From Halobacteriovorax sp. HLS (GTDB taxonomy: Bacteria; Bdellovibrionota; Bacteriovoracia; Bacteriovoracales; Bacteriovoracaceae): a stretch of 64,000 nucleotides of DNA. The first letter of the stretch is position 1; each line of letters begins with the position of its first letter. The translations under genes were made by a program, and so were the position numbers. The DNA lies in assembly GCF_004006665.1 (NCBI RefSeq), contig NZ_QOCL01000014.1, forward strand, positions 496,001 to 560,000. The letters run 5' to 3'. Shown here piece after piece: positions 4,177 to 51,080 of this stretch. The notes under the pieces are model-generated. The model made no database searches. It was not told the origin of the DNA and was given only the letters and a program-made list of their open reading frames with translations.

Positions 4177-5523
4177 ATGAAAATAGCAGTCCTTGGTAGT
4201 GGACCATTAGCTCTTGAAGCATCGCTTCACTTTGACCAGCTTGGAGCTTCGGTTACAATATTCGCAAATAATGACTTAGGTGGAATGGTTTCCAGAGTGG
4301 CTAAATTTGCTCCTGAAACATCTTTTGAGCTTGCTTGGAGTTCACTTACAACTAAGTGTGGAAGAGACTCAATAGGACTTCTTAATGGCCTAGAAGAGAT
4401 TCCAAGCGTAGGTGAATACTTTGAAAAGTATTTAAGTTCTCTAATTAAAAAAGGTAGTCCAAATATAGTGATTAAGCCTGGATCAGTTCAAAGAGTTCAC
4501 AAGAGGTTTCTGTCCATTGATGAACAAGTACCTGGTAAAAGTAGGCTCGAGGATTTGTTCAGAGTTGTTTTTACCACAGACCCTCAAACGAGTATTTTGA
4601 AACAAGTTGAAAGTAATCCCGAGTTATTCGAGAAGCTTGGTAAAGATGTGATTGACTCATTAAACGAATCAGTTGAGTCCTTCGATGATTTTGATATTGT
4701 CATAGATGCAACAGGTTCTTTTAAAGACCCTAATCCTATGGGACCTTCTAGAAGCTATGCTCTTAATGAATCTAGAATTAATAAAAGCTCTGACGTTTAC
4801 TATGGAAGAGAGTGCTTAAAAAATTATATTGAAGTAACGAAGAAGTCTAAGCATATTGTTCTAGTTGGAACAGGAGCCCTTTCGGCATTAGTTCTGAGCG
4901 AACTAGACCTTTGGTTAGAAGAAGATAAGTCTAGAATGGTTAGTCTTGTAACTACAGAGCTTAAACCTTATAAGGATCTATGGGAGAGTAAGAGGTGTGA
5001 AACACTTGCTCTTGGTACTATGGAAATACTAAAAACATATTACTCTAAGCTACAAAATGATAGGACCCAATATGAAAAGGATCTATTTGCATGGAGAGAC
5101 CTTGAGCCACATGTTAGGGCCAAGACAACTGAGCCTAAAGAGCCAGTTTCTCAATTAAATATAATTCCCGCAAGTAATGTAACCGCCTTAGATAAATTAT
5201 TAGATAGAGAGGGGCTTTTTGCTACTGTTGAATCTCACTCTTTTAGAAACTCAGGGAAAAAAAGTGAAGAGTACATCAGTACTTTGGCCTGTGATGCAAT
5301 CTTTGTATGCACCGGGCACTCTAAGAGTACAGATATATTCAATGGACTAAGAGTTGACTTTGATCATGACAAGATGGTTGCGCGTAAAGAAAATGGATCT
5401 CATGATGAACCAGGATTTTATACTCTAGGTTGTACGACATTATGTAAGTCCTCCTTAAAGCATGGCTTAGAACAGATTACAGAAATAGAGAAAGAGATTA
5501 TGAATTTCTTTAGTAGGGCATAA
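4177..5523 (+). CDS. FAD/NAD(P)-binding oxidoreductase, substrate unknown
   Basis: Flavoprotein with two Rossmann folds. The first, at the extreme N terminus (VLGSGPLALEA, residues 5-15), should bind FAD; the second (VLVGTGALSALVLSEL, about 228-243) should bind NAD(P)H. DATG near 177 and FVCTGHS near 403 are the usual flavoprotein ATG/TG motifs. No redox-active CxxC is visible. It resembles the glutamate synthase small subunit or monooxygenase-type class in outline only. It has no signal peptide. The next gene starts on the very next base, so the pair is one operon with a lipoprotein. There is no Shine-Dalgarno site before ATG 4177. Confidence 0.7.
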   Translation: MKIAVLGSGPLALEASLHFDQLGASVTIFANNDLGGMVSRVAKFAPETSFELAWSSLTTKCGRDSIGLLNGLEEIPSVGEYFEKYLSSLIKKGSPNIVIKPGSVQRVHKRFLSIDEQVPGKSRLEDLFRVVFTTDPQTSILKQVESNPELFEKLGKDVIDSLNESVESFDDFDIVIDATGSFKDPNPMGPSRSYALNESRINKSSDVYYGRECLKNYIEVTKKSKHIVLVGTGALSALVLSELDLWLEEDKSRMVSLVTTELKPYKDLWESKRCETLALGTMEILKTYYSKLQNDRTQYEKDLFAWRDLEPHVRAKTTEPKEPVSQLNIIPASNVTALDKLLDREGLFATVESHSFRNSGKKSEEYISTLACDAIFVCTGHSKSTDIFNGLRVDFDHDKMVARKENGSHDEPGFYTLGCTTLCKSSLKHGLEQITEIEKEIMNFFSRA

Positions 5524-37485: not shown

Positions 37486-40400
37486 TTAGGCCTTGTTAAT
37501 TGCCAATTTAATGTTGTGATCATCAATATTGAACTCAATCCCAGTATTATTGTCACTTTTAGAGATTGAATTCGCAAGAGTCTCTCTAGCGATGTGTTCT
37601 GAATGCTTTAGAACTGATGCGCAAATCTGCTCATCTCCGCTGAATTCAATTGTTATTCTGTCGTCAATATTAAATCCAAGATCCTTACGACTTCTTTGAA
37701 TTCTATTTACAACTTCACGTGCAAGTCCTTCTTCAACGAGTTCATCAGTAAGAACTACATCCATATCAATTGAAATATATCTATTTGATACGGCTTCAGT
37801 CCCTTCTTTGGCCTCTCTAAAAATATCAATATCTTCAGTAATCAGCTTTTCTCCGCCTAGCTCTATGAACCCGTTATCTTCCAAAGAAGCTAGGTCTTGA
37901 GCATTCATTGCCTGGATAAGTTTTCCAAATTGCCCCATTCTCTTACCAAGCTTCTTTCCAAGTACTTTGAAGTTAGGTTTTGCAAAGAGCTTAATGAACT
38001 TATCTTCCTCAGTTGAGTACTCAATAGACTTGATATTTAGTTCAGATTGAATATAAGTTTCAAGTTTAGAGATTTCATCTAATAAGTCTTGGTCTTTATG
38101 AATAATAGTTAGTCTCGCTAGTGGAGTCTTAACTTTTATTTGTACTTGGTTTCTTTTTTGTCTTCCAAGTAAAATTAGCTGTTGCATTCTATCAACAGCA
38201 TCTTCTAATTTAGGCTTTATCTTGTTTTCATTGGCAACAGGGTAGTCACAAAGATGAACTGAAACTTCCACCTCATCAGAGTTAAACTTCTTGAGTTCAG
38301 CATATGTGTATTCTGCAAGAAATGGTGCAAATGGCGCCATACACTTTGAAATTTCCGTTAGAACGTAGTGAAGCGTAGTGTATGCTGCACACTTATCATC
38401 ATTTAAGCCTTCTCCCCAAAAACGAGAACGGTTAAGTCGAATGTACCAATTTGTAAGGTCTTCGATGAAGTTAAATAGTGCTGGAACAACATTATAGAGT
38501 TTATATTCTTCCATTTCTTTGGCGATATTCTTCTTTAATGTCTGTAGTTTTGAAACTACCCACTGATCAACAATATTTTCACCTTCGAGAGAATTTGTCG
38601 TAGCTTGCCAACCGTCAACTTGAGCGTAAGTTTGGAAGAATTTAAAAGCATTAAACCACGGAAGTAACGCTCTTCTAACCATATCTTTTACACCAGCGTC
38701 AGTGAATCTTTGTTCTTCACCTCTTACCAGTCCTGAGTTTATTAAATAAAGCCTTAGGGCATCTGCTCCATACTCTTCCATTAATGTATCTGGAGGTGTG
38801 TAATTCTTAAGACGCTTTGACATTTTCTTGCCATCTTCGGCCATTACTAAACCGTTAACAATAACATTCTTAAATGCTGGCTTTTCAAATAAAGCTGTAG
38901 ATAAAACAGTTAAAGTGTAGAACCATCCTCTTGTCTGATCGAGACCTTCTGCGATGAATTCAGCTGGGTATCCCTTTTCAAAAACTTCTTTGTTCTCAAA
39001 TGGGTAGTGAAGTTGAGCGTATGGCATTGAACCTGATTCAAACCAGCAGTCAAATACTTCAGTGATTCTTTTATAAGTACCCTCTTCACCATCAATAGTG
39101 AATGTGACAGCGTCAGCATTTTCTCTGTGCAGATCTGTGAGTTCAACTCCTGAGAGTTCATTTAATTCTTGAATACTACCAATACAGATACATTTCCCAG
39201 ATTCAGTATTTCTCCAAATAGGTAGAGGAGTTCCCCACACTCTATTTCTAGATACGGCCCAATCACGAGCACCTTCAAGCCACTTACCAAATCTTCCGCC
39301 CTTTATATGTCCAGGAACCCAGTTGATTTGTTCGTTAGATGCCAGAAGCTTATCAACATTTTCTTCAACCTTTACATACCAAGAAGGAATCGCTTTATAG
39401 ATTAAAGGCGTATCAGATCTTGGACAGAATGGGTAACTGTGAACAAGTACTGATTGCTCATAGAGTGATCCATTTTCTTTAAGGTCTTTAATTATTTGTT
39501 TATCGGCTTCTTTTACATGAACACCTTGGTAGGCAGGAACATGTTTTGTAAACTTTCCAGCATCATCAACAGGGCAAACCGAAGCATTGATTCCTGCTTC
39601 TTTCATAATTCTATTATCATCTTCACCAAATGCTGGAGCAGTATGTACGATACCAGTACCATCATCTGTAGTAACGTAGTCATCATTTAAAACTTGAAAT
39701 GCACCGTCAGCTTTTAGCTCTTTGAAGAAATCGAAAATAGGAGTGTAGGTCTTTCCTTTAAGTTCACTTCCTTTAAGTTCTTCTACTGTTGTGAGATTTC
39801 TTTTCTTCGAATAGTGCTCTAGTCTCGATTTTGCCAAGTAGAAGAAGAGGTCTTTGTCTTCATCTTTTACTTTTACATAATCAATATCAGCACCAACACA
39901 GAGGCATAAATTTGAAGGAAGGGTCCAAGGAGTAGTGGTCCAAGCAGCAAGATAAGTATTCTCTTCACCATCCATTTTAAATAAAACTGTAACGGCCGGG
40001 TCTTGAACATCCTGGTAATTTGAAGTTGCTTCAAAATTAGATAGAACTGTTCCTAGTTCTGTCGAGAAAGGTACAACCTTAGTTCCTTGATAAACAAGAT
40101 CCTTTTCCCAGAGTTGTTTAAATACCCACCAGACAGATTCCATAAATGGAGTGTCCATCGTTTTATAGTCATTTTCAAAATCAACCCATCTACCAATTCT
40201 TGTAACTGTCTTTTCCCATTCAGATACAAATCTTTGAACAATTCCACGGCATTCGTCGTTATATTTCTTTACGCCAAACTTCGCTACTGCATCTTGAGCC
40301 GACATTCCAAGTTTCTTATCAATTTCGTGTTCAACAGGAAGTCCATGACAATCCCAACCAAAACGTCTTTCAACGTAACGACCTTTCATTGTCCAGTATC

Positions 40401-40617
40401 TTGGAACAATATCTTTTAGGGTAGAGGCCAGTAGGTGACCATGGTGAGGTAGTCCAGTTGCAAATGGAGGTCCATCATAGAAAATATATGGATTCTTATC
40501 TTTGGTCTTGTCTAAAGACTTTTTAAAAATATTCTGCTCTTTCCAAAATGATAAGACTTGATGTTCATTTTCTACAAAAGAAAAACTTTCATTATTTGTG
40601 CTTTCTGTTTCGGCCAC
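37486..40617 (-). CDS. ileS: Isoleucyl-tRNA synthetase, type IleS2
   Basis: 1043 aa class I synthetase that charges tRNA-Ile. The HIGH motif appears as HHGH (58-61) in the context YDGPPFATGLPHHGHL and ERRFGWDCHGLPVE, which is the eukaryote-like IleS2 form; bacterial IleS1 has NGxxHxGH. KMSKR is at about 598-602. The CP1 editing domain and the anticodon-binding domain (RLNRSRFWG) follow, and the C terminus is long and lacks the Cys4 zinc finger of E. coli IleS. The start is GTG 40617 with GGGAG about 7 bases upstream. IleS2 enzymes are usually insensitive to mupirocin. Confidence 0.96.
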   Translation of the reverse strand: MAETESTNNESFSFVENEHQVLSFWKEQNIFKKSLDKTKDKNPYIFYDGPPFATGLPHHGHLLASTLKDIVPRYWTMKGRYVERRFGWDCHGLPVEHEIDKKLGMSAQDAVAKFGVKKYNDECRGIVQRFVSEWEKTVTRIGRWVDFENDYKTMDTPFMESVWWVFKQLWEKDLVYQGTKVVPFSTELGTVLSNFEATSNYQDVQDPAVTVLFKMDGEENTYLAAWTTTPWTLPSNLCLCVGADIDYVKVKDEDKDLFFYLAKSRLEHYSKKRNLTTVEELKGSELKGKTYTPIFDFFKELKADGAFQVLNDDYVTTDDGTGIVHTAPAFGEDDNRIMKEAGINASVCPVDDAGKFTKHVPAYQGVHVKEADKQIIKDLKENGSLYEQSVLVHSYPFCPRSDTPLIYKAIPSWYVKVEENVDKLLASNEQINWVPGHIKGGRFGKWLEGARDWAVSRNRVWGTPLPIWRNTESGKCICIGSIQELNELSGVELTDLHRENADAVTFTIDGEEGTYKRITEVFDCWFESGSMPYAQLHYPFENKEVFEKGYPAEFIAEGLDQTRGWFYTLTVLSTALFEKPAFKNVIVNGLVMAEDGKKMSKRLKNYTPPDTLMEEYGADALRLYLINSGLVRGEEQRFTDAGVKDMVRRALLPWFNAFKFFQTYAQVDGWQATTNSLEGENIVDQWVVSKLQTLKKNIAKEMEEYKLYNVVPALFNFIEDLTNWYIRLNRSRFWGEGLNDDKCAAYTTLHYVLTEISKCMAPFAPFLAEYTYAELKKFNSDEVEVSVHLCDYPVANENKIKPKLEDAVDRMQQLILLGRQKRNQVQIKVKTPLARLTIIHKDQDLLDEISKLETYIQSELNIKSIEYSTEEDKFIKLFAKPNFKVLGKKLGKRMGQFGKLIQAMNAQDLASLEDNGFIELGGEKLITEDIDIFREAKEGTEAVSNRYISIDMDVVLTDELVEEGLAREVVNRIQRSRKDLGFNIDDRITIEFSGDEQICASVLKHSEHIARETLANSISKSDNNTGIEFNIDDHNIKLAINKA

Positions 40618-40793
40618 GAATTAGCTCCCATAAACTTAGTAAAATAGGTCATTTTAAGGGACAGATAATAGCAAAAAGCACGTGAAATTAACAGTTTAAT
40701 CTTGCTGTGCGTCCTCTTGTGTCAAATTTTGCCGAAGCTTCAACTTTATTGGAGTTATCTCTTAGAAAAATCTTAAATTCCGATAGGTTAGCT

Positions 40794-42212
40794 ATGAAGA
40801 CTTTAATTTTACTAGTCACGCTTATGACAATTGCTCCGATATCTCTTTCTCAGGAAAGGAAGTTTGGCACAACGACACGTTATCGAAAATCTACTAATAG
40901 TCTTATTCAGTGGGATAAATTGGATCCTGTGGACTATTTGGACTACGACCTTTGGCTAAATGATACTAAGCTCAAGGATAGATGGCCTAATTGGGAGAAG
41001 ACCGTTAGGGAGAAAAGACAGAAGGAGTCGCTTGGAAAAGTTCTCGATTGTGTCGGTGAGTGTAGGATGTTTCGAGGAGTAGGAAACTATAGGACTCAGT
41101 TTAGATCTGCTGTAATGGAAGGTGATGAGCTTATTACGAGTAGCGATAGTTACGCTTGGGTTTTCTTGTTAGATGGAACAATGGTTAGGCTCTCTCCAAG
41201 TAGTTCAATAACTTTCAGAGAAATAAATATTGGTGTAGATGAAACTTTTATTCATGTAAGAATCAATTCAGGAAATATTCTTTGGCTATCTAGAATGAAT
41301 GAAAAGTTCAAAGAAGTTAATGAAAGGGAAACAGATTCTATCTTTTTACCTATGTCGTATTATGAGGCCATGCCTATTACTGATAAGGTTAAAGTCGTTG
41401 AAGGGGATCTCTTTTCTCTTCTAGAAAAAAAGAAAACTGTTCTCAAACAGTATCAACGACTTAATAAATTAATTGAAGAAAATAATAAGAAATTTAAAAA
41501 GCGTGATACCTATGCTTTTCTCGTTAGTCCAAATGGAACGGTTGCCGGGCGTAACTTAAATATTGAATTTATTTCTCTTATTGGAAATTTGTCTTATGTT
41601 AAATCTAGAACTTATTCACAACTTGGCCTTGATCTTGGAGTAGAAGATAGCGATAAATCAAGTGAAGCTTCTTTTTATCTGAGAGGGTTTGAAAATAAAG
41701 AGAGCATCACATTAACTCCAGGGCAATGGTATCGAATAGGGAAAAAAGGGCGAGAGATAAATCTTTATCAGGATACTCAGCTCCAGCAGATAGGCGAGTT
41801 ACTAACAAAGAGAATTCCTTCAATATTAGTAGGAAGAGAATTATTGTTTGAAAAATATTCTACTTTTATGAATGAAGCCCAAGATGCCGATGTCTTGGCC
41901 TATGATCATAGTTATAGACAGTGGGGGAAGATGTCAGATCCTAAAAGTGATATGAGTCTTAGGTTGAGTTACTTATTGGAGTACACAAGAAGAATTGAGA
42001 CCACAAACTTATTAAGCTCTGGTCGATTACGTGATAAGTTAATCGCAAGAGGTGAGCCTACTGATGATATGGAGTATAGTTTGAAGTTCTTTAATAAGGC
42101 GCTGGTTAATTATATGAGAGCAAATGACGACCCAACACTTGAAGAAAGTGATAGGGAAGTTTTAAATAGTGTAACGAAGAAATATTGGAAGATAATAAAT
42201 GACATCAAATAA
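40794..42212 (+). CDS. Exported FecR-domain protein
   Basis: 472 aa from ATG 40794, which begins directly with a signal peptide (1-19, SLS before Gln); the frame runs on to a GTG at 40707 that would bury it. Residues about 85-180 form a FecR domain (MFRGVGNYRT, FRSAVMEGDEL, AWVFLLDGTMVRLSPSSS, INSGNILWL). A coiled-coil segment follows near 210-240 and a second beta-rich domain after it. FecR domains of this free type occur in periplasmic structural or polysaccharide-linked proteins, not only in iron signalling. No sigma factor gene is adjacent. It overlaps the maf gene by 14 bases. Confidence 0.78.
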   Translation: MKTLILLVTLMTIAPISLSQERKFGTTTRYRKSTNSLIQWDKLDPVDYLDYDLWLNDTKLKDRWPNWEKTVREKRQKESLGKVLDCVGECRMFRGVGNYRTQFRSAVMEGDELITSSDSYAWVFLLDGTMVRLSPSSSITFREINIGVDETFIHVRINSGNILWLSRMNEKFKEVNERETDSIFLPMSYYEAMPITDKVKVVEGDLFSLLEKKKTVLKQYQRLNKLIEENNKKFKKRDTYAFLVSPNGTVAGRNLNIEFISLIGNLSYVKSRTYSQLGLDLGVEDSDKSSEASFYLRGFENKESITLTPGQWYRIGKKGREINLYQDTQLQQIGELLTKRIPSILVGRELLFEKYSTFMNEAQDADVLAYDHSYRQWGKMSDPKSDMSLRLSYLLEYTRRIETTNLLSSGRLRDKLIARGEPTDDMEYSLKFFNKALVNYMRANDDPTLEESDREVLNSVTKKYWKIINDIK

Positions 42213-42849
42213 AGTACATCAATTAATACTTGCGAGTGGTTCCCCAAGAAGAAAGGAACTGTTGTCGTGGCTAGACGTTAAATTTACAATTATTAGCTCT
42301 GACGTAGAAGAGGTTACTGAAAAAATTGAGCCAGTGGAAGTTGCACAAGATTTGGCGGCCCTAAAAGGAAGAGATGTTTTTAGTAAAATAGATCGTTTGC
42401 AATTTCCCAATCCTATTATTATTTCATCAGATACTATTGTAACTTATAATGGTCTTATTTATGGAAAACCTAAGAATAAGGCATCAGCTAGAGAAATGCT
42501 ACTTGAGCTAGAGGGGAAGACTCACGAAGTTATTACAAGTGTCTTTTTTTTAAAGAGTGATCTGCATAGTGGAGAAGTTATAGAAAAAGTCTTCTCTGTA
42601 TCGAGTAAAGTTACGTTTGAGAAAATTGATCGAGACTTGCTTGATAGATATATAGAAAGTGGTGAGTCTTTAGATAAAGCGGGTTCCTATGGAATTCAAG
42701 GTCGAGGTCTCTCTTTTATTTCGAACTTAGACGGATCTTACTCGAATGTTGTTGGACTTCCTTTGTCTGACTTTTTTAGGGAATTCAAAGCTTTCCTTGG
42801 TTTTGAGAACTCTATTAATGGAGAGTGGAGAAAGGTTTTAGGTGAATGA
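42199..42849 (+). CDS. maf: Maf-family nucleotide pyrophosphatase
   Basis: 216 aa house-cleaning enzyme that hydrolyses non-canonical or modified dTTP/UTP/CTP to monophosphates. N-terminal SGSPRR (13-18), SSDTIV near 76-81 with the catalytic Asp, GKPKNKASAREML near 89-101, and SYGIQGRG near 168-175. It overlaps both neighbours, so the four-gene run is one operon. The exact substrate class (dTTP/UTP against 7-methyl-GTP) is not decided. Confidence 0.92.
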   Translation: MTSNKVHQLILASGSPRRKELLSWLDVKFTIISSDVEEVTEKIEPVEVAQDLAALKGRDVFSKIDRLQFPNPIIISSDTIVTYNGLIYGKPKNKASAREMLLELEGKTHEVITSVFFLKSDLHSGEVIEKVFSVSSKVTFEKIDRDLLDRYIESGESLDKAGSYGIQGRGLSFISNLDGSYSNVVGLPLSDFFREFKAFLGFENSINGEWRKVLGE

Positions 42850-43204
42850 ATTCCAAGCACTCTTACAAGAATTAGGACTTAATTATTTTGATCTAACACA
42901 TAATGAAGATGGAATACATTTTTCTATCGAAGTGTGGGCCAAGCCTGGATCTAAGCTTGAAAAAGTACAAATTGGACAAAGAGGTGAGTTGGTTTCTTTT
43001 ATTAAAGAAAGGGCCGTTGAAGGTGCTGCTAATAAGGGGTTACTAAAGAGTATTGCTAAGGTCTTTGGAACAAATTCTTCTAATATCGTGCTTTTAAGCG
43101 GTGGAAAATCAAAGTTTAAAAGATTTTCTGTAGCTTTAACTTTTACAGACCGTAAAAGAATATCTTATTATTTAGAGAAACTAAATGGTGCACTTAAAAA
43201 ATGA
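42842..43204 (+). CDS. YggU/DUF167-family protein
   Basis: 120 aa. The conserved block EVWAKPGSKLEKV, then AVEGAANKGLLKSIAK and VLLSGGKSKFK identifies the UPF0235/DUF167 family, a small alpha/beta protein of unknown function. It overlaps maf by 8 bases and the next gene by 4. Confidence 0.88.
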   Translation: MNEFQALLQELGLNYFDLTHNEDGIHFSIEVWAKPGSKLEKVQIGQRGELVSFIKERAVEGAANKGLLKSIAKVFGTNSSNIVLLSGGKSKFKRFSVALTFTDRKRISYYLEKLNGALKK

Positions 43205-43662
43205 AAATCTTACTAATTCTATTACTCACAGTTAACGTTTCTTGGTCACAAGAAAAGTCGGCCTTTGAGTACACTAAAGAGATTCACAATAAAATTAACG
43301 AGCTTTCTAAAGTTCAGCCAACAAGTTATCAATCTAGAGTATTTGAACTTAAAGCTGATTTAGAAAAATTCTTTTCATTCAAAAAGAAGGTTTGTAATGG
43401 AGAGTTTTCAGCTGTGATACTTAGTGAGGAGCCATCAGTTTCAAGTAGCAGTAAGCTGTCTAAAGAAGAAAAGGAATTGTGCTTTAGAGAGTTAAAAGCT
43501 CTGCAAACTTCATTTATAAATAATCTCTTTCTTGCTAGAAAGAATTATCTTCAATGGGGTCATGATAAGAATTTAAAAGAATTAAATGAAGAAAGAGAAA
43601 AGGCTATCCTAAGCTTAAATGAAAGCTTCGGAAAAAAGAGTTCTAAGATTCGTGGAAGATAA
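43201..43662 (+). CDS. Small exported helical protein
   Basis: 153 aa with a signal peptide (1-16, SWS). The mature part is mainly amphipathic helix, with two Cys (about 63 and 97). No family recognised. It is coupled to the YggU gene by an ATGA overlap. It converges on a small basic-protein gene. Confidence 0.68.
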   Translation: MKILLILLLTVNVSWSQEKSAFEYTKEIHNKINELSKVQPTSYQSRVFELKADLEKFFSFKKKVCNGEFSAVILSEEPSVSSSSKLSKEEKELCFRELKALQTSFINNLFLARKNYLQWGHDKNLKELNEEREKAILSLNESFGKKSSKIRGR

Positions 43663-43672
43663 GATATAAATC

Positions 43673-43873
43673 CTAATCTTGTGAATCCTTGATTTCTTCT
43701 TTTTTAGTACTTAGTACTGCTTTTGGTCTTAAACTCTTTGCTCTACCAAATGATCTTGTAGGTTTTAAGCTTAAAGTCTTTGTAGATGATCTAAAAGAAC
43801 TTCTCATTAAACCTTTGTGGTCAAATTTGATTTCAGTTTCAGAGTTTGTAGTAGTTTCATTTGAAGTGCTCAT
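43673..43873 (-). CDS. Small basic protein, unknown
   Basis: 66 aa, rich in Ser, Thr, Lys and Arg with no hydrophobic core, so probably disordered and possibly nucleic-acid binding. It is judged real because GGAGGAAG stands 5 bases before the ATG, while the opposite-strand frame over the same bases has no such site. No recognised family. The coding evidence is composition and ribosome site only. Confidence 0.55.
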   Translation of the reverse strand: MSTSNETTTNSETEIKFDHKGLMRSSFRSSTKTLSLKPTRSFGRAKSLRPKAVLSTKKEEIKDSQD

Positions 43874-44229
43874 GCAACTTCCTCCATATTGAGTGTGACT
43901 GATTTATATACACCATCAGATCACACAAGAGAGGAACTTACCTAGCTGGTGATCTTTTGATTCTTATTTTTGCTAAAATAGCTTACTTTCAACAACGGCA
44001 AATCCTTAGCCAAAGTTTCTTTTAACTTGATCCTTAACGGTCAAAATATGTAAAAACTTAATTCAGTTTGCACTAAACTAAGTTATCGTTATTTTAACAC
44101 ATTCTGCCATAAAATGCACACTTTCCAAGAGGCAATCCTGTCCTGTTGCGCCATGAGTTGTAAATAGCTGAAATCTAGGGCAATCTATATCTTAAAATAT
44201 GAATAAATTGTCAAAAAGGAAGACGTTCC
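43874..44229. other. Intergenic region upstream of TRAP operon
   Basis: 356 AT-rich bases without a convincing gene. A six-base inverted repeat GATCAC/GTGATC lies at 43919-43954. TTGCAC followed after about 16 bases by TATTTT near 44070-44096 is a possible forward promoter. I see nothing else that can be named; a small RNA or regulated leader is possible. Confidence 0.45.
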
Positions 44230-45213
44230 ATGTCGAGAAACTCTATTTACACTAAGGTGTTGTCAATTTTTACACTTATTTTAGTTACTGCATGTGGTGG
44301 CATACAAAAAGCAGCAGTTGGAACAACTGGTTCACTGATGTATGAGGCAACTAAAGGTCTTGAAACTGAAGGTAATTGGCACAATTTTAAAGTAGGTACT
44401 TTACCTAACTTATTGCTGGTTGATGGCCTTTTAAGTCTTAAGCCAGATGATCGCGAATTACTTGTAACAGCAATTAAGGGTTACACAGGGTACGCTTTTG
44501 CTATTAATGAGACAGAGTATTTGAAAGACTATTTTGAAGAAAAGGAAAAGAGTGTTCATAAAGATCAGGCCATTATTAATTATGCAAAGGCATTTTCTTA
44601 TGGACAAAGATTACTTCTAAAATATGGAGTGAGCTGGGATGATCTATTAAAATCTCAAAATCAAGAAGGTGGAGTTGAAAAACTCTTAGAAGATAACCTA
44701 AGAGAAGATCAACCTATATTAGAAGGTGTTCTTTTCTCGGCCCAAGCTTTAGGAGGAATGATTAATCTCCAAAAAACAGATATGTCTATGGTTGCCTTAC
44801 TTCCTATCGTAAAAGGGATGTTTGATTGGGTTTGCCATAAGGAGCCAGATATAAACTTTGGTGCTTGTCAGATCTTTGATGGAACATATGCTGCTTCAAG
44901 ACCTAAAATGCTAGGCGGGGACCCTGAAAAAGGAAAAGAAATTTTCTTAAAGCTTATAGCAAAAAATCCAGAGAATTGGTTAGCCCGACTTGCTTTTGTT
45001 CAGTACTATGTAATTCCTATGTCTGAAGAAGATGATTATAAAACTCAAAAGTTCTTTTTAGAGACGGCCAGTAGAAACTTAGCAAAAGAATTGCGAGGTA
45101 ATCCTAAGAGAAAGATAGACAAAGCTTTTACGCAGCCAAGATTAAGACTTTATCAGTCGCTTGCTGTAAAAAGATATGAAATTATTAAACAATATGAAGA
45201 TGATTTATTTTAA
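44230..45213 (+). CDS. TatT-type lipoprotein of a TRAP transporter
   Basis: 327 aa with a lipoprotein signal (LVTAC, C22). The body matches the TRAP transporter T-component family (TatT), helical TPR-like proteins that cap the substrate-binding protein; see GSLMYEATKGLETEGNW, LLSLKPDDRELLVTAIKGY, AKAFSYGQRLLLKYG and LGGDPEKGKEIF. TatT was described for Treponema as part of TPR-protein-associated TRAP transporters (TPATs). AAGGAAG precedes ATG 44230. It is the first gene of an operon with DctP-, DctQ- and DctM-type genes. Confidence 0.85.
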   Translation: MSRNSIYTKVLSIFTLILVTACGGIQKAAVGTTGSLMYEATKGLETEGNWHNFKVGTLPNLLLVDGLLSLKPDDRELLVTAIKGYTGYAFAINETEYLKDYFEEKEKSVHKDQAIINYAKAFSYGQRLLLKYGVSWDDLLKSQNQEGGVEKLLEDNLREDQPILEGVLFSAQALGGMINLQKTDMSMVALLPIVKGMFDWVCHKEPDINFGACQIFDGTYAASRPKMLGGDPEKGKEIFLKLIAKNPENWLARLAFVQYYVIPMSEEDDYKTQKFFLETASRNLAKELRGNPKRKIDKAFTQPRLRLYQSLAVKRYEIIKQYEDDLF

Positions 45214-45225
45214 TAGGTGATAACA

Positions 45226-46197
45226 ATGAAAAAAACTATTTCGACACTAGCACTAAGTGTGCTCCTTACTTTTAATGCTCATGCCCTTACGGTTAAGGTT
45301 GGAGTTCTCGCTCCTGAAGGAACTAATTGGTCAAATAACTTAAAGAAAATGGCCAAGGAAATTAGAGAAAAAACAAATAAGAAAGTTAAGATTAAGTTCT
45401 ACTTTGGTGGTTCTCAGGGTGATGAATCTGATGTGCTTAGAAAAATAAGAGTAGGTCAGTTACATGGAGGGATCTTTACGGGGAAAACTCTTGGAGATAT
45501 TAATGGTGATGTCAGAGTAATGGAACTTCCTTTTACCTTTTTTGAAAAAAGAGAAAAGGCGTTAAAGATTTTAGAGAATATGGCACCATTCTTTAATGAG
45601 AAATTCGAAAAGAATGAATTTAAGAATTTAGGCTTCTTTGAAATTGGAAATGTTTACTTTGTTTCTCAGCAAAAAACTGACTCACTTAAGTCAATGATGG
45701 GAGTGAAGATTTGGTCATGGGAAGGAGACAAGCTTGTTTCTACAATGATTGAGAGCATGAAATTTGTTTCTGTACCACTTCCTCTTCCAGATGTACTTTC
45801 TTCTTTATCTACAGGAATTATTGAAGCTGCCTATGCACCACCTCTTGGGATCATTTCCTTACAGTGGAATACTAAAGTTAAATATGTAATTGATCTTCCA
45901 ATATCATTTTCAGTAGGAGCTTTCCTTGTTAACTCTAAACAATGGAATAAGATCTCAGCTGAGCACCAAAAAATTATTAATGAAATCTCTAGCAAGTATG
46001 TAGGAGAGGTTAATAAAGGTAATGATAAAGATAATCAAGAAGCTATTGCTTCAATGAAGGCGCAGGGAATTCAATTTCTAAAATTTGCTCCAGAAGATAT
46101 GAAGAAGACAAAAGCATTAAGAGATGACGTAATTAAGAAACTAAAGGGTGATCTCTTTTCAGCAGAAGCACTTAAAAGGTTAGAGAGTCAGTTATAA
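45226..46197 (+). CDS. TRAP transporter substrate-binding protein (DctP/TatP type)
   Basis: 323 aa from ATG 45226 (AGGTGA 6 bases upstream; the GTG inside that site is not the start). Signal peptide 1-20 (AHA). The DctP fold is clear: KVGVLAPEGTNWSN, FYFGGSQGDESDVLRKIRVGQL, VMELPFTF and PDVLSSLSTGIIEAAYAP. At the position where carboxylate-binding DctP proteins have KIR, this one has KIW (MGVKIWSWEGD), so the usual Arg that holds the substrate carboxylate is missing. That fits the TPAT subgroup with a non-standard, possibly hydrophobic ligand. Stop and next start overlap by one base. Confidence 0.9.
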   Translation: MKKTISTLALSVLLTFNAHALTVKVGVLAPEGTNWSNNLKKMAKEIREKTNKKVKIKFYFGGSQGDESDVLRKIRVGQLHGGIFTGKTLGDINGDVRVMELPFTFFEKREKALKILENMAPFFNEKFEKNEFKNLGFFEIGNVYFVSQQKTDSLKSMMGVKIWSWEGDKLVSTMIESMKFVSVPLPLPDVLSSLSTGIIEAAYAPPLGIISLQWNTKVKYVIDLPISFSVGAFLVNSKQWNKISAEHQKIINEISSKYVGEVNKGNDKDNQEAIASMKAQGIQFLKFAPEDMKKTKALRDDVIKKLKGDLFSAEALKRLESQL

Positions 46198-46685
46198 TGA
46201 AAGTTTTAGGAACGCTAGATCAATTTTTAGAAAAATTTGCGCGCTATGGACTCGTTTTTAGCGTTTTAACAATGCTTATTTTAAGTGTGTTAACGATCGT
46301 TTTGAGATGGTTCGATACAACGATCCATTGGGTTGAACCATTCGTTAGACACTTGGTTTTCTTAAGTACATTTCTGGGTGGTGTTCTCGCTACAGGTAGG
46401 GGAGAGCATATCGGAATTGATATTGTTAGTAAGTGGCTTGAGGCCAGACACTTAGATAAGGCACAAGCAATAATCAAGAGGATCATTTCTCTTGCATCAT
46501 GCTTAACTTTGTTATGGATGATTAAAGCCTCTTATGACTTTTTTCTAGTGGAACTTAAATATGGAAAAGAAGTCTTTTGGGGAATCAAAAGTGGGTATTT
46601 AGTCGCCATCATTCCTTTTGGATTTTCTCTAATTGCTTATAGATTCTTCTATAGTTTCATAAGCTCTTTTGGGGGGGATGAGTAA
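46197..46685 (+). CDS. TRAP transporter small permease (DctQ type)
   Basis: 162 aa with four predicted membrane helices (about 17-37, 49-67, 92-113 and 131-150). The motif LATGRGEHIGIDIVSKWL in the second loop is typical of DctQ. The start overlaps the stop of the binding-protein gene (TAATG) and its own stop overlaps DctM by one base. It is the inner-membrane scaffold of the transporter. Confidence 0.9.
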   Translation: MKVLGTLDQFLEKFARYGLVFSVLTMLILSVLTIVLRWFDTTIHWVEPFVRHLVFLSTFLGGVLATGRGEHIGIDIVSKWLEARHLDKAQAIIKRIISLASCLTLLWMIKASYDFFLVELKYGKEVFWGIKSGYLVAIIPFGFSLIAYRFFYSFISSFGGDE

Positions 46686-47950
46686 TGATTGAGATCTTAT
46701 CTTTTGTTGGTATTCTCGTACTTGCTTCAATAGGTGTTCCACTATTTGTTATTATGGCCTTAGCGGCCCTTGTTGCATTTAGCTTCACTGACGTTGCGAC
46801 TTCTGCAGTTGCTGTTGAAATTTACAGAATATCAAGTGCTCCTACTCTTTTAACAATACCACTATTTACCTTTGCTGGTTATATAATGGCAGAATCAAAG
46901 TCTCCACAAAGACTTCTAAGGTTTGCTGAGGCGGCCCTCGGATGGATGCCTGGTGGAATTGCAATTGTTAGTTTAGTTATTTGTGCTTTTTTTACTGCCT
47001 TTACAGGTGCTAGTGGTGTTACCATCATTGCACTTGGTGGTCTATTATATCCAATATTAAAAAATGAAGGATATACAGAGAAGTTTAGCTTAGGACTTAT
47101 TACAACTTCAGGTTCACTTGGATTACTCTTTCCGCCATCTCTTCCAATTATTCTTTATGGACTTGTTGCGAAAGTAGATATTGATAAATTATTCTTAGCT
47201 GGAATTATTCCAGGAATCTTACTTATTGTAATTCTCTCTTTTTGGTCAATTAAAAATGGAACTTTTGCTGCAAGTAAAAAGACATTTGATGCAAAAGAAG
47301 TGATGGAAGCATTTAAAGGTTGTTTCTTTGAAGCCATTTTACCAGTAGGTGTTCTGGTTGGAATTTATGGTGGATTTACGACGGCAACAGAAGCAGCTGC
47401 AATGACAGCCTTTTATATACTTATCGTTGAGTGTTTTATCTATAAAGATTTAGATATTTTTAAAGATATACCAAGAGTTGTCGCCGATAGTATGAGTCTA
47501 GTTGGTGGTATTTTACTTATTCTTTGTTGTGCTCTTGGATTAACTAACTACTTAGTTGATGAAGAAGTTCCGATGAAGATTCTAGATTTTATGAGAACCT
47601 TCTTAACGAATAAGTATTCATTCCTATTATTTTTAAATATTTTCTTACTGATTGTAGGAAGTTTAATGGATATCTTTAGTGCAATTATTGTTGTTGTTCC
47701 TTTGATTGTGCCAATCGCTGAAGAGTTTGGGGTACATCCAGTTCATCTTGCGATCATCTTCTTAACGAATCTAGAGATTGGATATATTACTCCTCCAGTA
47801 GGGATAAATTTATTTATATCTAGTTTTAGGTTTAATAAACCCGTCACAGAGCTTTATAAGGCATCTTTTCCTTTCTTGCTCTTATTATTAGTGGCGCTAA
47901 TTATCATTACATACGTACCTGATTTGAGTTTAATGTTAATAGGTGAATAA
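46685..47950 (+). CDS. TRAP transporter large permease (DctM type)
   Basis: 421 aa polytopic protein with about 11-12 membrane helices, the sodium-coupled translocation subunit. Conserved blocks include TIPLFTFAGYIMAES, FFTAFTGASGVTIIALGG, GSLGLLFPPSLPIILYG and EIGYITPPVGINLF. Full length for the family. Gene order T-P-Q-M is uninterrupted, and the next gene starts 3 bases after the stop. Confidence 0.94.
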   Translation: MIEILSFVGILVLASIGVPLFVIMALAALVAFSFTDVATSAVAVEIYRISSAPTLLTIPLFTFAGYIMAESKSPQRLLRFAEAALGWMPGGIAIVSLVICAFFTAFTGASGVTIIALGGLLYPILKNEGYTEKFSLGLITTSGSLGLLFPPSLPIILYGLVAKVDIDKLFLAGIIPGILLIVILSFWSIKNGTFAASKKTFDAKEVMEAFKGCFFEAILPVGVLVGIYGGFTTATEAAAMTAFYILIVECFIYKDLDIFKDIPRVVADSMSLVGGILLILCCALGLTNYLVDEEVPMKILDFMRTFLTNKYSFLLFLNIFLLIVGSLMDIFSAIIVVVPLIVPIAEEFGVHPVHLAIIFLTNLEIGYITPPVGINLFISSFRFNKPVTELYKASFPFLLLLLVALIIITYVPDLSLMLIGE

Positions 47951-47953
47951 AGT

Positions 47954-49537
47954 TTGAAAAGTGTGCTGCAACTTTTATTAATTAGTTTTTTCTTGTGCAA
48001 TTTTACGATTGCACAAGAGAGTTCAAATAATTTTTACGATAGTGTTCATCTTGGTGAGAGAAAAATCCCAATGTTCTATGGGACTACAGATCCTCTATAT
48101 AAATTCTCAAACATTTTAGGCAATATTTCCTTTGAGGAAACTCATTATTATGAGCAGTACCTACCTTCTTTTATTTCGAAAGATATATTTAGCCTCTATA
48201 AGCTTTGGGAAGAAGAAATTCCTGTTAAGTCTAATTGTCCTGATTATTATCTTAATGAGAATATAGAGTATATTCGTTACCTTTATAGACTTTTAACGAT
48301 TAGTTATATCTTTGAAGGGCTAAAAGAGTATCATATTCAGCTTTACGAAATAGGTGAAAATGAAAAAGCAGCTTCTCTAGACTGGAACAAGGTCATTGGA
48401 AAGTGTACGCCTAAGACAATCGAAATGAGGAAGTTCGTAAAAAGAGTTAAGTCTAGATATATGGAAAATTGGAATCCAGGTTCTTTTTCTAAGCTTAATA
48501 AGTCGGAACTTTCAAAGTGGTTAGAACGTTTTAAAACCCTACGACCTCGAGGGATTGCAAAAATTAGAGCGTATAAGTGGTTGCTCGAAAATGGCTACGA
48601 TATCTCCGATGTTTCGATTGAAGATATAGGTAAGGCATTGATTAGTTCTTATAATAGTGATCTTAACTCTTTAAATACTTTTTGCTCTGAAAAAGATGAC
48701 TTGTATGGAATGAGCTATATTAATAATGCTGCTGATCTTATTATTCAATCTAATGCGTCTAATGTTATCAATGACGGAGGTCATGGGCTTAGTTGTTTGA
48801 ATCGATATTCCAAGTTATTTAAGTCTAAGGAAATGATCTATGCCGATCTAGATGTTATTTTCTCTCTCGTTTCAAAACAATTAATTGCAAAAGATTCTAG
48901 ATATGTTCAGGGGGAATTATTTCTTCCTGGGGCATTAAAAGAGTTTGATGATAAAGGACTTGGAGACTTTCTCTTTGTCGAAAAAAAGGTTGAGCCAAAA
49001 CCAGTTCCAAAGCCTGTTATCATTGCTAAAATTGAGCCTAAACCAGTACCAAAACCTAAGGTTATTCCTAAAGTTGTGGAAAAGAAAAAAGTGGTGGTAG
49101 TGCCAAAAGTTGAGCCAAAACCAGTTGTAAAAGTCTCAGCTTTTGAAACAGCTAGAAATATTTTAGAAAATACTGATGTTAATAAAGTATCAATTAATAT
49201 GAATAAAATGAAAGAGGATCTAGTTTTTTCACAGGCCATGATCAAGGCCCTTGAAGCACCGATTAAGGATTATCAAACTAGAGAGGCCTTGGATGATATG
49301 AAGAAGTATGATGGACTAGGTACTAAAACTGAACCTATGCGCCTGATCTTTTTAAAATTTTTAATTGAAAATAATATGCATCAAGGTCTCTACAATATTA
49401 CTTCTATAATCGGTGAGAAGTTCTGGGTTTTAAATGACCTCGAAGGAAAGACGACGCCTGTCTATGCTGAAATCCTTAATGATGAAAGCACTAAGTATAA
49501 GTGGCAGTTAAACCTCTTGGATCACAATAAGAAATAA
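47954..49537 (+). CDS. Exported protein with Lys/Pro repeats, part of TRAP operon
   Basis: 527 aa. The start is TTG 47954, with AGGTGA about 8 bases upstream. Signal peptide 1-20. The N-terminal 330 residues are helical with many Tyr, Trp and Cys. Residues about 345-395 are a Lys/Pro/Val-rich spacer with three copies of the [IV]EPKPV element, as in TonB-type periplasm-spanning segments. The C-terminal domain (about 397-527) is helical. Only 3 bases separate it from dctM, so it probably works with the transporter. No such subunit is standard for TRAP systems; function unknown. Confidence 0.75.
   Translation: MKSVLQLLLISFFLCNFTIAQESSNNFYDSVHLGERKIPMFYGTTDPLYKFSNILGNISFEETHYYEQYLPSFISKDIFSLYKLWEEEIPVKSNCPDYYLNENIEYIRYLYRLLTISYIFEGLKEYHIQLYEIGENEKAASLDWNKVIGKCTPKTIEMRKFVKRVKSRYMENWNPGSFSKLNKSELSKWLERFKTLRPRGIAKIRAYKWLLENGYDISDVSIEDIGKALISSYNSDLNSLNTFCSEKDDLYGMSYINNAADLIIQSNASNVINDGGHGLSCLNRYSKLFKSKEMIYADLDVIFSLVSKQLIAKDSRYVQGELFLPGALKEFDDKGLGDFLFVEKKVEPKPVPKPVIIAKIEPKPVPKPKVIPKVVEKKKVVVVPKVEPKPVVKVSAFETARNILENTDVNKVSINMNKMKEDLVFSQAMIKALEAPIKDYQTREALDDMKKYDGLGTKTEPMRLIFLKFLIENNMHQGLYNITSIIGEKFWVLNDLEGKTTPVYAEILNDESTKYKWQLNLLDHNKK
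48989..49127 (+). repeat. Lys/Pro-coding direct repeats
   Basis: Three copies of an 18-27 base unit resembling GTTGAGCCAAAACCAGTT at 48989, 49031 and 49109 encode the periplasmic spacer. Confidence 0.85.
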
Positions 49538-49563
49538 AAAAAGGAGCGACGATGCGCTCCTTT
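49534..49563. terminator. Bidirectional terminator ending TRAP operon
   Basis: Nine-base stem (49540-49548 with 49555-49563) and a six-base loop. T-rich tails follow on both strands; the reverse-strand tail is the better one (seven T). It serves the convergent lipoprotein gene too. Confidence 0.85.
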
Positions 49564-49590
49564 CTTTATCTGAATCGATAAGTGTATGAA

Positions 49591-50244
49591 TTAATACTTC
49601 TTAGCAACTTTCTTTAATTTTCTTTTTACTGATCCCTTCATATCTAACATAAGTAAGAAACCACCATTTTCACTATTGATATCTTCCCCTACTAGAGAAA
49701 GGTTACCAACTCTTGAACCACCAGCATAGAATCTTGCCGTGATGATTGAGTTTTGCATGTTAAGACCTTTTACTGGAATAAAGATACCAAAAATACTTGG
49801 TCCAATATAAACACCCATGTTATGAAACTTTTCAATACTAAACGCTACCGCAGGTAATCTACCACTTGAAACTCCTGGTAACGCTCTACCACCTGGAAGT
49901 GATTGTGGGTCTAGTCTAGATAAGTCTCCATTAAACACATCATCAAGTGAAATTGAAACTGACATTAGAGTACCACTAGATTGAAGATCTGGTGAAACTT
50001 CAATATAAGAGTTAGGGTATTTAGGAATGGCATATCTTAGGCCACCTTGTAGTTCTATACCATCAAATACCATGGAGATTAAAACATCGTCTTGTTGTAA
50101 TGTAACCACAGGACCAACTACTCCTGGAATAGATAAATTTGATCCACTCTTACCGCTACCACATGATGTTGTGAATAGGGATACAGATAATAGGACTGAT
50201 AAAAAAACTAACTTTGATTTACTCGCCAATTCCATTACTTTCAT
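49591..50244 (-). CDS. Predicted lipoprotein, unknown function
   Basis: 217 aa. A long lipoprotein signal with lipobox TTSC (C28), then a Gly/Ser linker. The body is beta-rich, with repeated Gly/Pro turns (PGVVGPVV, PGGRALPGVSSGRLP), ending in a basic KRKLKKVAKKY tail. No family recognised. GAGAGAA precedes the ATG. It may be an outer-membrane lipoprotein. Confidence 0.7.
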   Translation of the reverse strand: MKVMELASKSKLVFLSVLLSVSLFTTSCGSGKSGSNLSIPGVVGPVVTLQQDDVLISMVFDGIELQGGLRYAIPKYPNSYIEVSPDLQSSGTLMSVSISLDDVFNGDLSRLDPQSLPGGRALPGVSSGRLPAVAFSIEKFHNMGVYIGPSIFGIFIPVKGLNMQNSIITARFYAGGSRVGNLSLVGEDINSENGGFLLMLDMKGSVKRKLKKVAKKY

Positions 50245-50606
50245 AATTCTCTCTCAATAGAAACATTATGTTTCTGGTATCTATATTGTCTTTACAAGAT
50301 ACGGACGATTGGAACTGACGTACAACAACAGACTTATATAGAAATCTCTCTTACGAGGAACAAGGTTATCAGCTTGAGCAATTTGATCAATTACTTTTTT
50401 CGAATTTAATTTTCATTTTTGTATTTTAAGCAATTCAATACTTTATTATTCAATGATTTTATGACTTTAGCTCGACTCGCTATTTTTGAGATAAGAAAGT
50501 GAGTTGCCCATTTATTTAGGCAGCTATTTTTTTAGCACTGCCAATCACACTTGCTAAGAAAGTCTTTCCGCTCGTAAACTCGATAAATACTGGCTATAAT
50601 TAAGGT
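50245..50606. other. Divergent intergenic region
   Basis: 362 AT-rich bases between divergent genes. It holds a perfect TATAAT at 50595-50600 for the forward gene, and an interrupted inverted repeat around 50277-50302 (GTATC...GATAC) near the reverse gene's start. A TGCC/GGCA hairpin is followed by a T run at about 50503-50533, terminator-like but with no gene to end. Nothing else is recognised. Confidence 0.45.
50595..50600 (+). promoter_or_regulatory. Perfect -10 box six bases before ATG 50607
   Basis: TATAAT ends six bases before the start codon, so transcription should start at about the A of ATG. AAGG is present but touches the ATG. The -35 is poor. Confidence 0.5.
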
Positions 50607-51080
50607 ATGAAAGTATTTAGCACCTTTGATAACAGACCTTCTACTACCGACCAAGTTACTTCAAAAAGAAAGAAAAGCTCTGGTCCAAAGAAAAATACGA
50701 AAAGCTATAGACCTCCAAGAGAGCAATTGTCTGCCGAAGAAATAAAGGCAAGAGTCGCTCAGAAAACTAAAAAGAGTGTGGCAAAAGTTAATATAGAAAA
50801 AGGGAAGCAAGTTAGTACCTTTATGTCTGATGAAGCTAAACCTAAAGTGGATATTTCAAAGAGAGCACAGCAGGCAGCGAAGCCTGAAGAAGCTAAAGCT
50901 GAGGCTAAAGTTGAAGGCAAGGTTGAAGAGAAGAAACTCTTATTACAACCAGATGTTGATAAGAATGATCCTCAAGATCCAAATGTGCGTAAAAAGCTTA
51001 AAGGTCTTCTAAGTGTAGGAGGCTTTGGCTGGAACGAAAAAGAAAGAGCTGCTCTTGCTGAAATTCTAGAAAAAGACTAG
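50607..51080 (+). CDS. Lys/Ala/Glu-rich, probably disordered protein
   Basis: 157 aa without signal peptide. The N-terminal 70 residues are basic and Ser/Pro-rich; the middle (about 75-115) is Ala/Lys/Glu repeat-like (KPEEAKAEAK); the C terminus GLLSVGGFGWNEKERAAL is the only part that looks ordered. No family recognised. The reading frame is supported by codon use typical of the neighbours and by a consensus -10 just upstream. Its last 4 bases overlap the end of the convergent nrnA gene. Confidence 0.65.
   Translation: MKVFSTFDNRPSTTDQVTSKRKKSSGPKKNTKSYRPPREQLSAEEIKARVAQKTKKSVAKVNIEKGKQVSTFMSDEAKPKVDISKRAQQAAKPEEAKAEAKVEGKVEEKKLLLQPDVDKNDPQDPNVRKKLKGLLSVGGFGWNEKERAALAEILEKD

Follow-up and report, generated by a model that had tools for sequence, protein, structure and literature searches.

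The locus analyzed here lies within a 64,000-nucleotide stretch of DNA (the window) from the marine predator Halobacteriovorax sp. HLS, in which five genes follow one another on the plus strand in the order tatT, dctP, dctQ, dctM and a fifth gene. The first, tatT (44230–45213), encodes a 327-residue TRAP transporter T-component lipoprotein (PF16811, E 2.8e-30) with the lipobox LVTAC at residues 18–22. The next (45226–46197, with an alternative start at 45217) encodes a DctP-type solute-binding protein that has a signal peptide and carries Trp163 at the position of the ligand-carboxylate arginine (PF03480, E 9e-39; NF037995, E 1.3e-80). The small and large permease subunits are encoded by dctQ (46197–46685; PF04290, E 2.1e-17) and dctM (46685–47950; PF06808, E 3.9e-84; TIGR00786 above its cut-off), respectively. 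The fifth gene (47954–49537) has a TTG start, and its predicted product is an exported protein of 527 residues, as judged from conserved family alignments and an AlphaFold2 model. Only 3 bases separate the dctM stop codon from the fifth reading frame; this junction and the gene order had been proposed in a preliminary description of the sequence, and open reading frames were found at exactly those positions.

Directly behind the fifth gene is an intrinsic-terminator-like hairpin with a 9-bp stem (49540–49563) that would work from both strands, and the unit most likely ends there because of this placement. Co-transcription of the five genes is suggested by the shared terminator and by the gaps between dctM and the fifth gene, which across relatives are mostly −35 to +30 bases. 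Judged from sequence, the five genes appear to form a single transcription unit whose products fall into two parts that are separable in function. A scan of positions 40000–51000 against Rfam gave no match. On the minus strand, and divergent from tatT, there is a 66-residue basic open reading frame (43673–43873) with the motif SLKPSRSF..VKSLRP, which is conserved in the genus (43–53% identity, E 1e-12 to 1e-14) and, to a lesser degree, beyond it in other genera. Convergent with the five genes is a minus-strand gene (49591–50244) for a 217-residue putative lipoprotein that has a TTSC lipobox, 83–91% identity within the genus and no Pfam family.

The first four genes had been assigned to the TPAT class beforehand, and our searches agree with that assignment. 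TatT scored 106 bits against a PF16811 cut-off of 26.5 and is the single protein of this family in the genome; the DctP, DctQ and DctM families were likewise matched above their cut-offs, and the binding protein has Trp163 in place of arginine, known TPATs mostly, though not always, being without that arginine. That TatT is a lipoprotein is predicted from the LVTAC motif, identified by inspection, and from a lipobox pattern in 50 of 63 relatives, with most of the others near the consensus. On these sequence features, tatT-dctPQM is a TPAT-class TRAP transporter with a Trp-type binding protein. It resembles the TPR-protein-associated TRAP transporter of Treponema pallidum (TatT/TatPT/TatQM; Tp0956, Tp0957) in its TatT-family lipoprotein, its arginine-less DctP-type protein, its TRAP permease and its single operon (PMC5812351). 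The two differ in that a review describes one tatQM gene in Treponema (PMC5812351), whereas dctQ and dctM are separate here; in that alanine is reported at the arginine position of the Treponema TPAT (PMC5812351) and tryptophan is found here; and in that the binding protein here, unlike that of T. pallidum, has no lipobox (the pattern was found in 0 of 51 DctP sequences). The exported fifth protein behind the transporter is a further difference from the T. pallidum system. The searched literature on Halobacteriovorax and its relatives held no mention of TRAP transporters.

The tryptophan falls in the exact column of the arginine. In phmmer alignments to four TRAP binding proteins of solved structure (PDB 4ng7, 4x04, 4p47 and 4xfe), the GVKIWSWEGD stretch of the binding protein aligned on GMKIRVQG-like stretches with zero shift, so that Trp163 (numbered by alignment to the window DctP, with its start as translated at 45226) occupies the column of the KIR arginine on beta-strand 6 that marks carboxylate-binding DctP proteins. 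The family alignment placed Trp163 in the same column. The KIW-for-KIR substitution noted earlier is thus upheld, with no arginine at a shifted position. Tryptophan was present in all 58 home-type DctP sequences, a set in which one genome (G021) is counted twice and three other Bdellovibrionota genomes with tatT-dctPQM (G039, G047 and G054) are included. Arginine, by comparison, was present in all four DctP proteins of a second tatT-dctPQM type, which is distinct from the first and occurs within this family (L095, L102, L107 and L108). About 97% of TRAP binding proteins retain the arginine, which contacts the ligand carboxylate through a salt bridge; TatPT homologues mostly have alanine at this position (PMC5812351). 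As this arginine pairs with the carboxylate and is replaced by tryptophan here, a non-carboxylate or hydrophobic ligand is plausible for this DctP.

The fifth protein appears to be built of two domains joined by a flexible spacer. The AlphaFold2 model, made with 29 relatives, had an overall pLDDT of 77.5; its N-terminal domain is helical and is followed by residues 326–379, modelled with low confidence, and by a C-terminal domain. We place the Cys-bearing helical domain at residues ~60–320, the spacer at ~326–379 and the compact C-terminal domain at ~395–522. When predicted alone, the C-terminal domain reached a pLDDT of 93.3 and a pTM of 0.85. Comparison with PDB structures gave nothing above chance: the highest VIA Z was 4.4 for the whole model (82 aligned residues, rmsd 4.8), the highest Z for the C-terminal domain was 2.4 (73 aligned residues, rmsd 4.6), and Foldseek E values were at least 0.47. 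The lack of a PDB match for a predicted model is no demonstration of a new fold. Searches of the protein against Pfam, NCBIfam, PHROGs and PDB sequences returned low-complexity or chance matches only. The profile search called for in the preliminary description yielded a conserved, order-specific family and no named Pfam family.

The N-terminus of the fifth protein, read by eye, is signal-peptide-like and ends in an A-x-A-like motif in several relatives; none of 52 sequences had a lipobox pattern. Six cysteines are conserved in the family, and the number of cysteines per protein is mostly even (4, 6 or 8). In the window protein, C140 and C233 are missing jointly. The mostly even numbers and this joint loss fit disulphides, and hence export, so the protein is probably periplasmic. 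The spacer is nearly fixed in length, at about 58 residues (mostly 56–62 in 34 relatives), but its composition varies widely: Lys makes up 0–38% and Pro 2–35% of it in the same 34 relatives, and Lys/Pro-rich, Thr/Pro-rich and Pro-poor types all occur. The Lys/Pro-rich spacer on which the TonB comparison was originally built is indeed present in the window protein and is a feature of this genus; what the wider family keeps is its length.

The fifth gene is a genuine, ancient gene. A profile search of 129 genomes of the order (that of the window and 128 relatives) found it in 111, all within one family and covering 37 of 48 genera. Elsewhere in the phylum, about 240 genomes gave no full-length match, and spacer-only matches were confined to one of them; a profile of the C-terminal domain, run on 39 genomes around G039, recovered members of the order only, plus one chance-level match. 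A GTDB-wide pattern scan gave 36 loci that are all consistent with the same order, although a few metagenome titles are vague or seemingly mislabelled, and the closest named relatives in it were Halobacteriovorax and other Bacteriovoracaceae. In one genome (G021), the gene is broken by stops. In about 94 of the 111 genomes, it comes directly after dctM and has the same orientation. This figure consists of 92 counted by script plus G117 and G130, which the script missed only because their fifth gene is split across two contigs. The proposed neighbourhood check across Bdellovibrionota thus places the fifth gene beside tatT-dctPQM order-wide. The flanking genes (ileS, a FecR-like gene, Maf and a DHH gene) are syntenic across the order too and, because of this, adjacency alone is no proof for or against a shared function.

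There are also genomes in which the two parts have come apart. In six (G076, G112, G114, G118, G123 and G136), tatT-dctPQM is wholly missing and the fifth gene is an intact open reading frame, preceded by the LipHP gene (the 153-residue reading frame at 43201 in the window). Neither DctP nor DctM was detected anywhere in these genomes, apart from a chance-level DctM match (1e-3) in G112. Most of the evidence for these losses comes from drafts or metagenome assemblies, which are 81–99% complete; G136 is one contig at 98%. In a tree of flanking genes, some nodes of which have low support, the six are interleaved with transporter-bearing genomes, and the tree does not support them as one clade. 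The transporter and fifth-gene trees agree in the main with this species tree. Up to six separate losses is the simplest reading of the scattered placement and the largely concordant trees. The fifth gene is under constraint without the transporter as well, having changed no faster there than in transporter-bearing pairs; dN/dS mostly had no numeric value because synonymous sites are saturated, as between G114 and G118, whose fifth proteins are 76% identical.

The converse also occurs: six genomes (G006, G016, G075, G108, G109 and G135) have all four transporter genes but lack the fifth gene after them, and G005 has TatT and no fifth gene. In other genomes, the operon is split. Only tatT is beside the fifth gene in G011, G146 and G147; dctPQM is elsewhere in the genome in G011 and G147, and dctM was seen at a contig edge in G146. 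In G022, G028 and G092, tatT-dctP is beside the fifth gene and dctQM elsewhere. We considered whether the dctQM absent from this locus had been lost in G011, G022 and G028, and rejected this since orthologues are located elsewhere in those genomes. In G101, dctM is located elsewhere and looks broken, and in G115, G142 and G143 the locus keeps tatT and the fifth gene only.

Overall, our data favor, with a probability of roughly 65%, an exported two-domain envelope protein that is co-transcribed with, yet separable from, a TPAT importer, and that is not an obligatory subunit of it. The importer would combine the TatT lipoprotein and the DctQ/DctM permease with a soluble DctP-type protein in which tryptophan replaces the ligand-clamping arginine. 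If it works like the Treponema TPAT, its ligand, most likely hydrophobic or in some other way not a carboxylate, would pass from TatT to DctP and then to DctQM. The order-specific fifth protein, with its putatively disulphide-bearing helical domain, ~58-residue spacer and compact C-terminal domain, would act in the periplasm, either by itself or together with TatT, in the envelope or in the handling of ligands. Because the fifth gene outlives the importer where the latter is lost, we read it as a linked neighbour with its own role. Against this stand the draft state of most of the assemblies from which losses are read, the syntenic flanks, which make adjacency say little either way, and the presence of both parts together in most lineages, which could mean a real but dispensable partnership.

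Alternatively, the fifth protein could be a true accessory subunit of the importer that links TatT or the outer membrane to the inner-membrane complex and that found a secondary use after transporter loss. The shared operon in about 94 genomes and the near-constant spacer length agree with this idea. Where operon splits were found, the fifth gene also remains next to tatT, although this says little, as the splits remove the inner block. We nevertheless regard a bridging subunit as unlikely, given the up to six retentions of the fifth gene alone after full loss of tatT-dctPQM and the complete transporters that do without it. Nor does the likeness to TonB extend beyond the Lys/Pro-rich segment that the exported protein has in this genus: TonB_C matched neither the fifth protein nor 29 relatives, the only TonB models that touched the fifth protein being low-complexity spacer models, and the spacer lies between two globular domains and varies in composition. 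The TonB-like bridge of the preliminary description is accordingly not supported. Bridging may occur where a lineage has both parts, but it cannot explain the retention of the gene where the transporter has been lost.

About as improbable is that the fifth protein and TatT, or a TatT-like protein, move a hydrophobic molecule through the periplasm with no need of the TRAP permease, other transporters finishing the import. Pairs of tatT and the fifth gene with dctPQM absent at the locus (G011, G146, G147, G115, G142 and G143) are in keeping with this, as is BstC of Methylococcus capsulatus, a TatT-family protein that binds sterols with no TRAP permease involved (PMC10942540). BstC has in common with the TatT described here its family and a lipid-handling setting, the latter putative for TatT here; its partners are BstA and BstB, and it is not described in a TRAP operon (PMC10942540), whereas TatT here is part of one. 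TatT-family genes were also observed in genomes with no detectable DctM (at 5473–6390 of L097 in G035, and in G104, G105, G106 and G136), and TatT too may therefore act without a TRAP permease. Arguing against a TatT partnership are the six genomes that have the fifth gene and no TatT at the home locus, and G005 with the reverse. A small outer-membrane beta-barrel gene (PF13505) was observed to adjoin a stand-alone TatT gene (L101, 5215–6641) and a TatT gene of the second type (L107, 4665–6157).

Slightly less probable again, and speculative, is a role for the fifth protein as a novel kind of periplasmic carrier or tether, present in this order alone, which would hand hydrophobic and perhaps prey-derived molecules to TatT and could serve other importers once the permease is lost. 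That the fifth gene is simply an unrelated housekeeping envelope gene, in place since the ancestor of the order, is consistent with the wholly syntenic block from ileS to the DHH gene, but is very improbable given the short gaps and shared terminator that suggest co-transcription.

To our knowledge, the characterisation of TPAT transporters comes from one pathogen and has not yet yielded a substrate. The locus described here adds a Trp-type TPAT subclass that is fixed across an order of predatory bacteria, with an Arg-type subclass in the same family, and the two provide a natural comparison for substrate assignment. It also adds a widely retained, order-specific envelope protein without a recognisable domain, for which the genomes that have the fifth gene but no transporter offer a ready genetic route to its stand-alone role.
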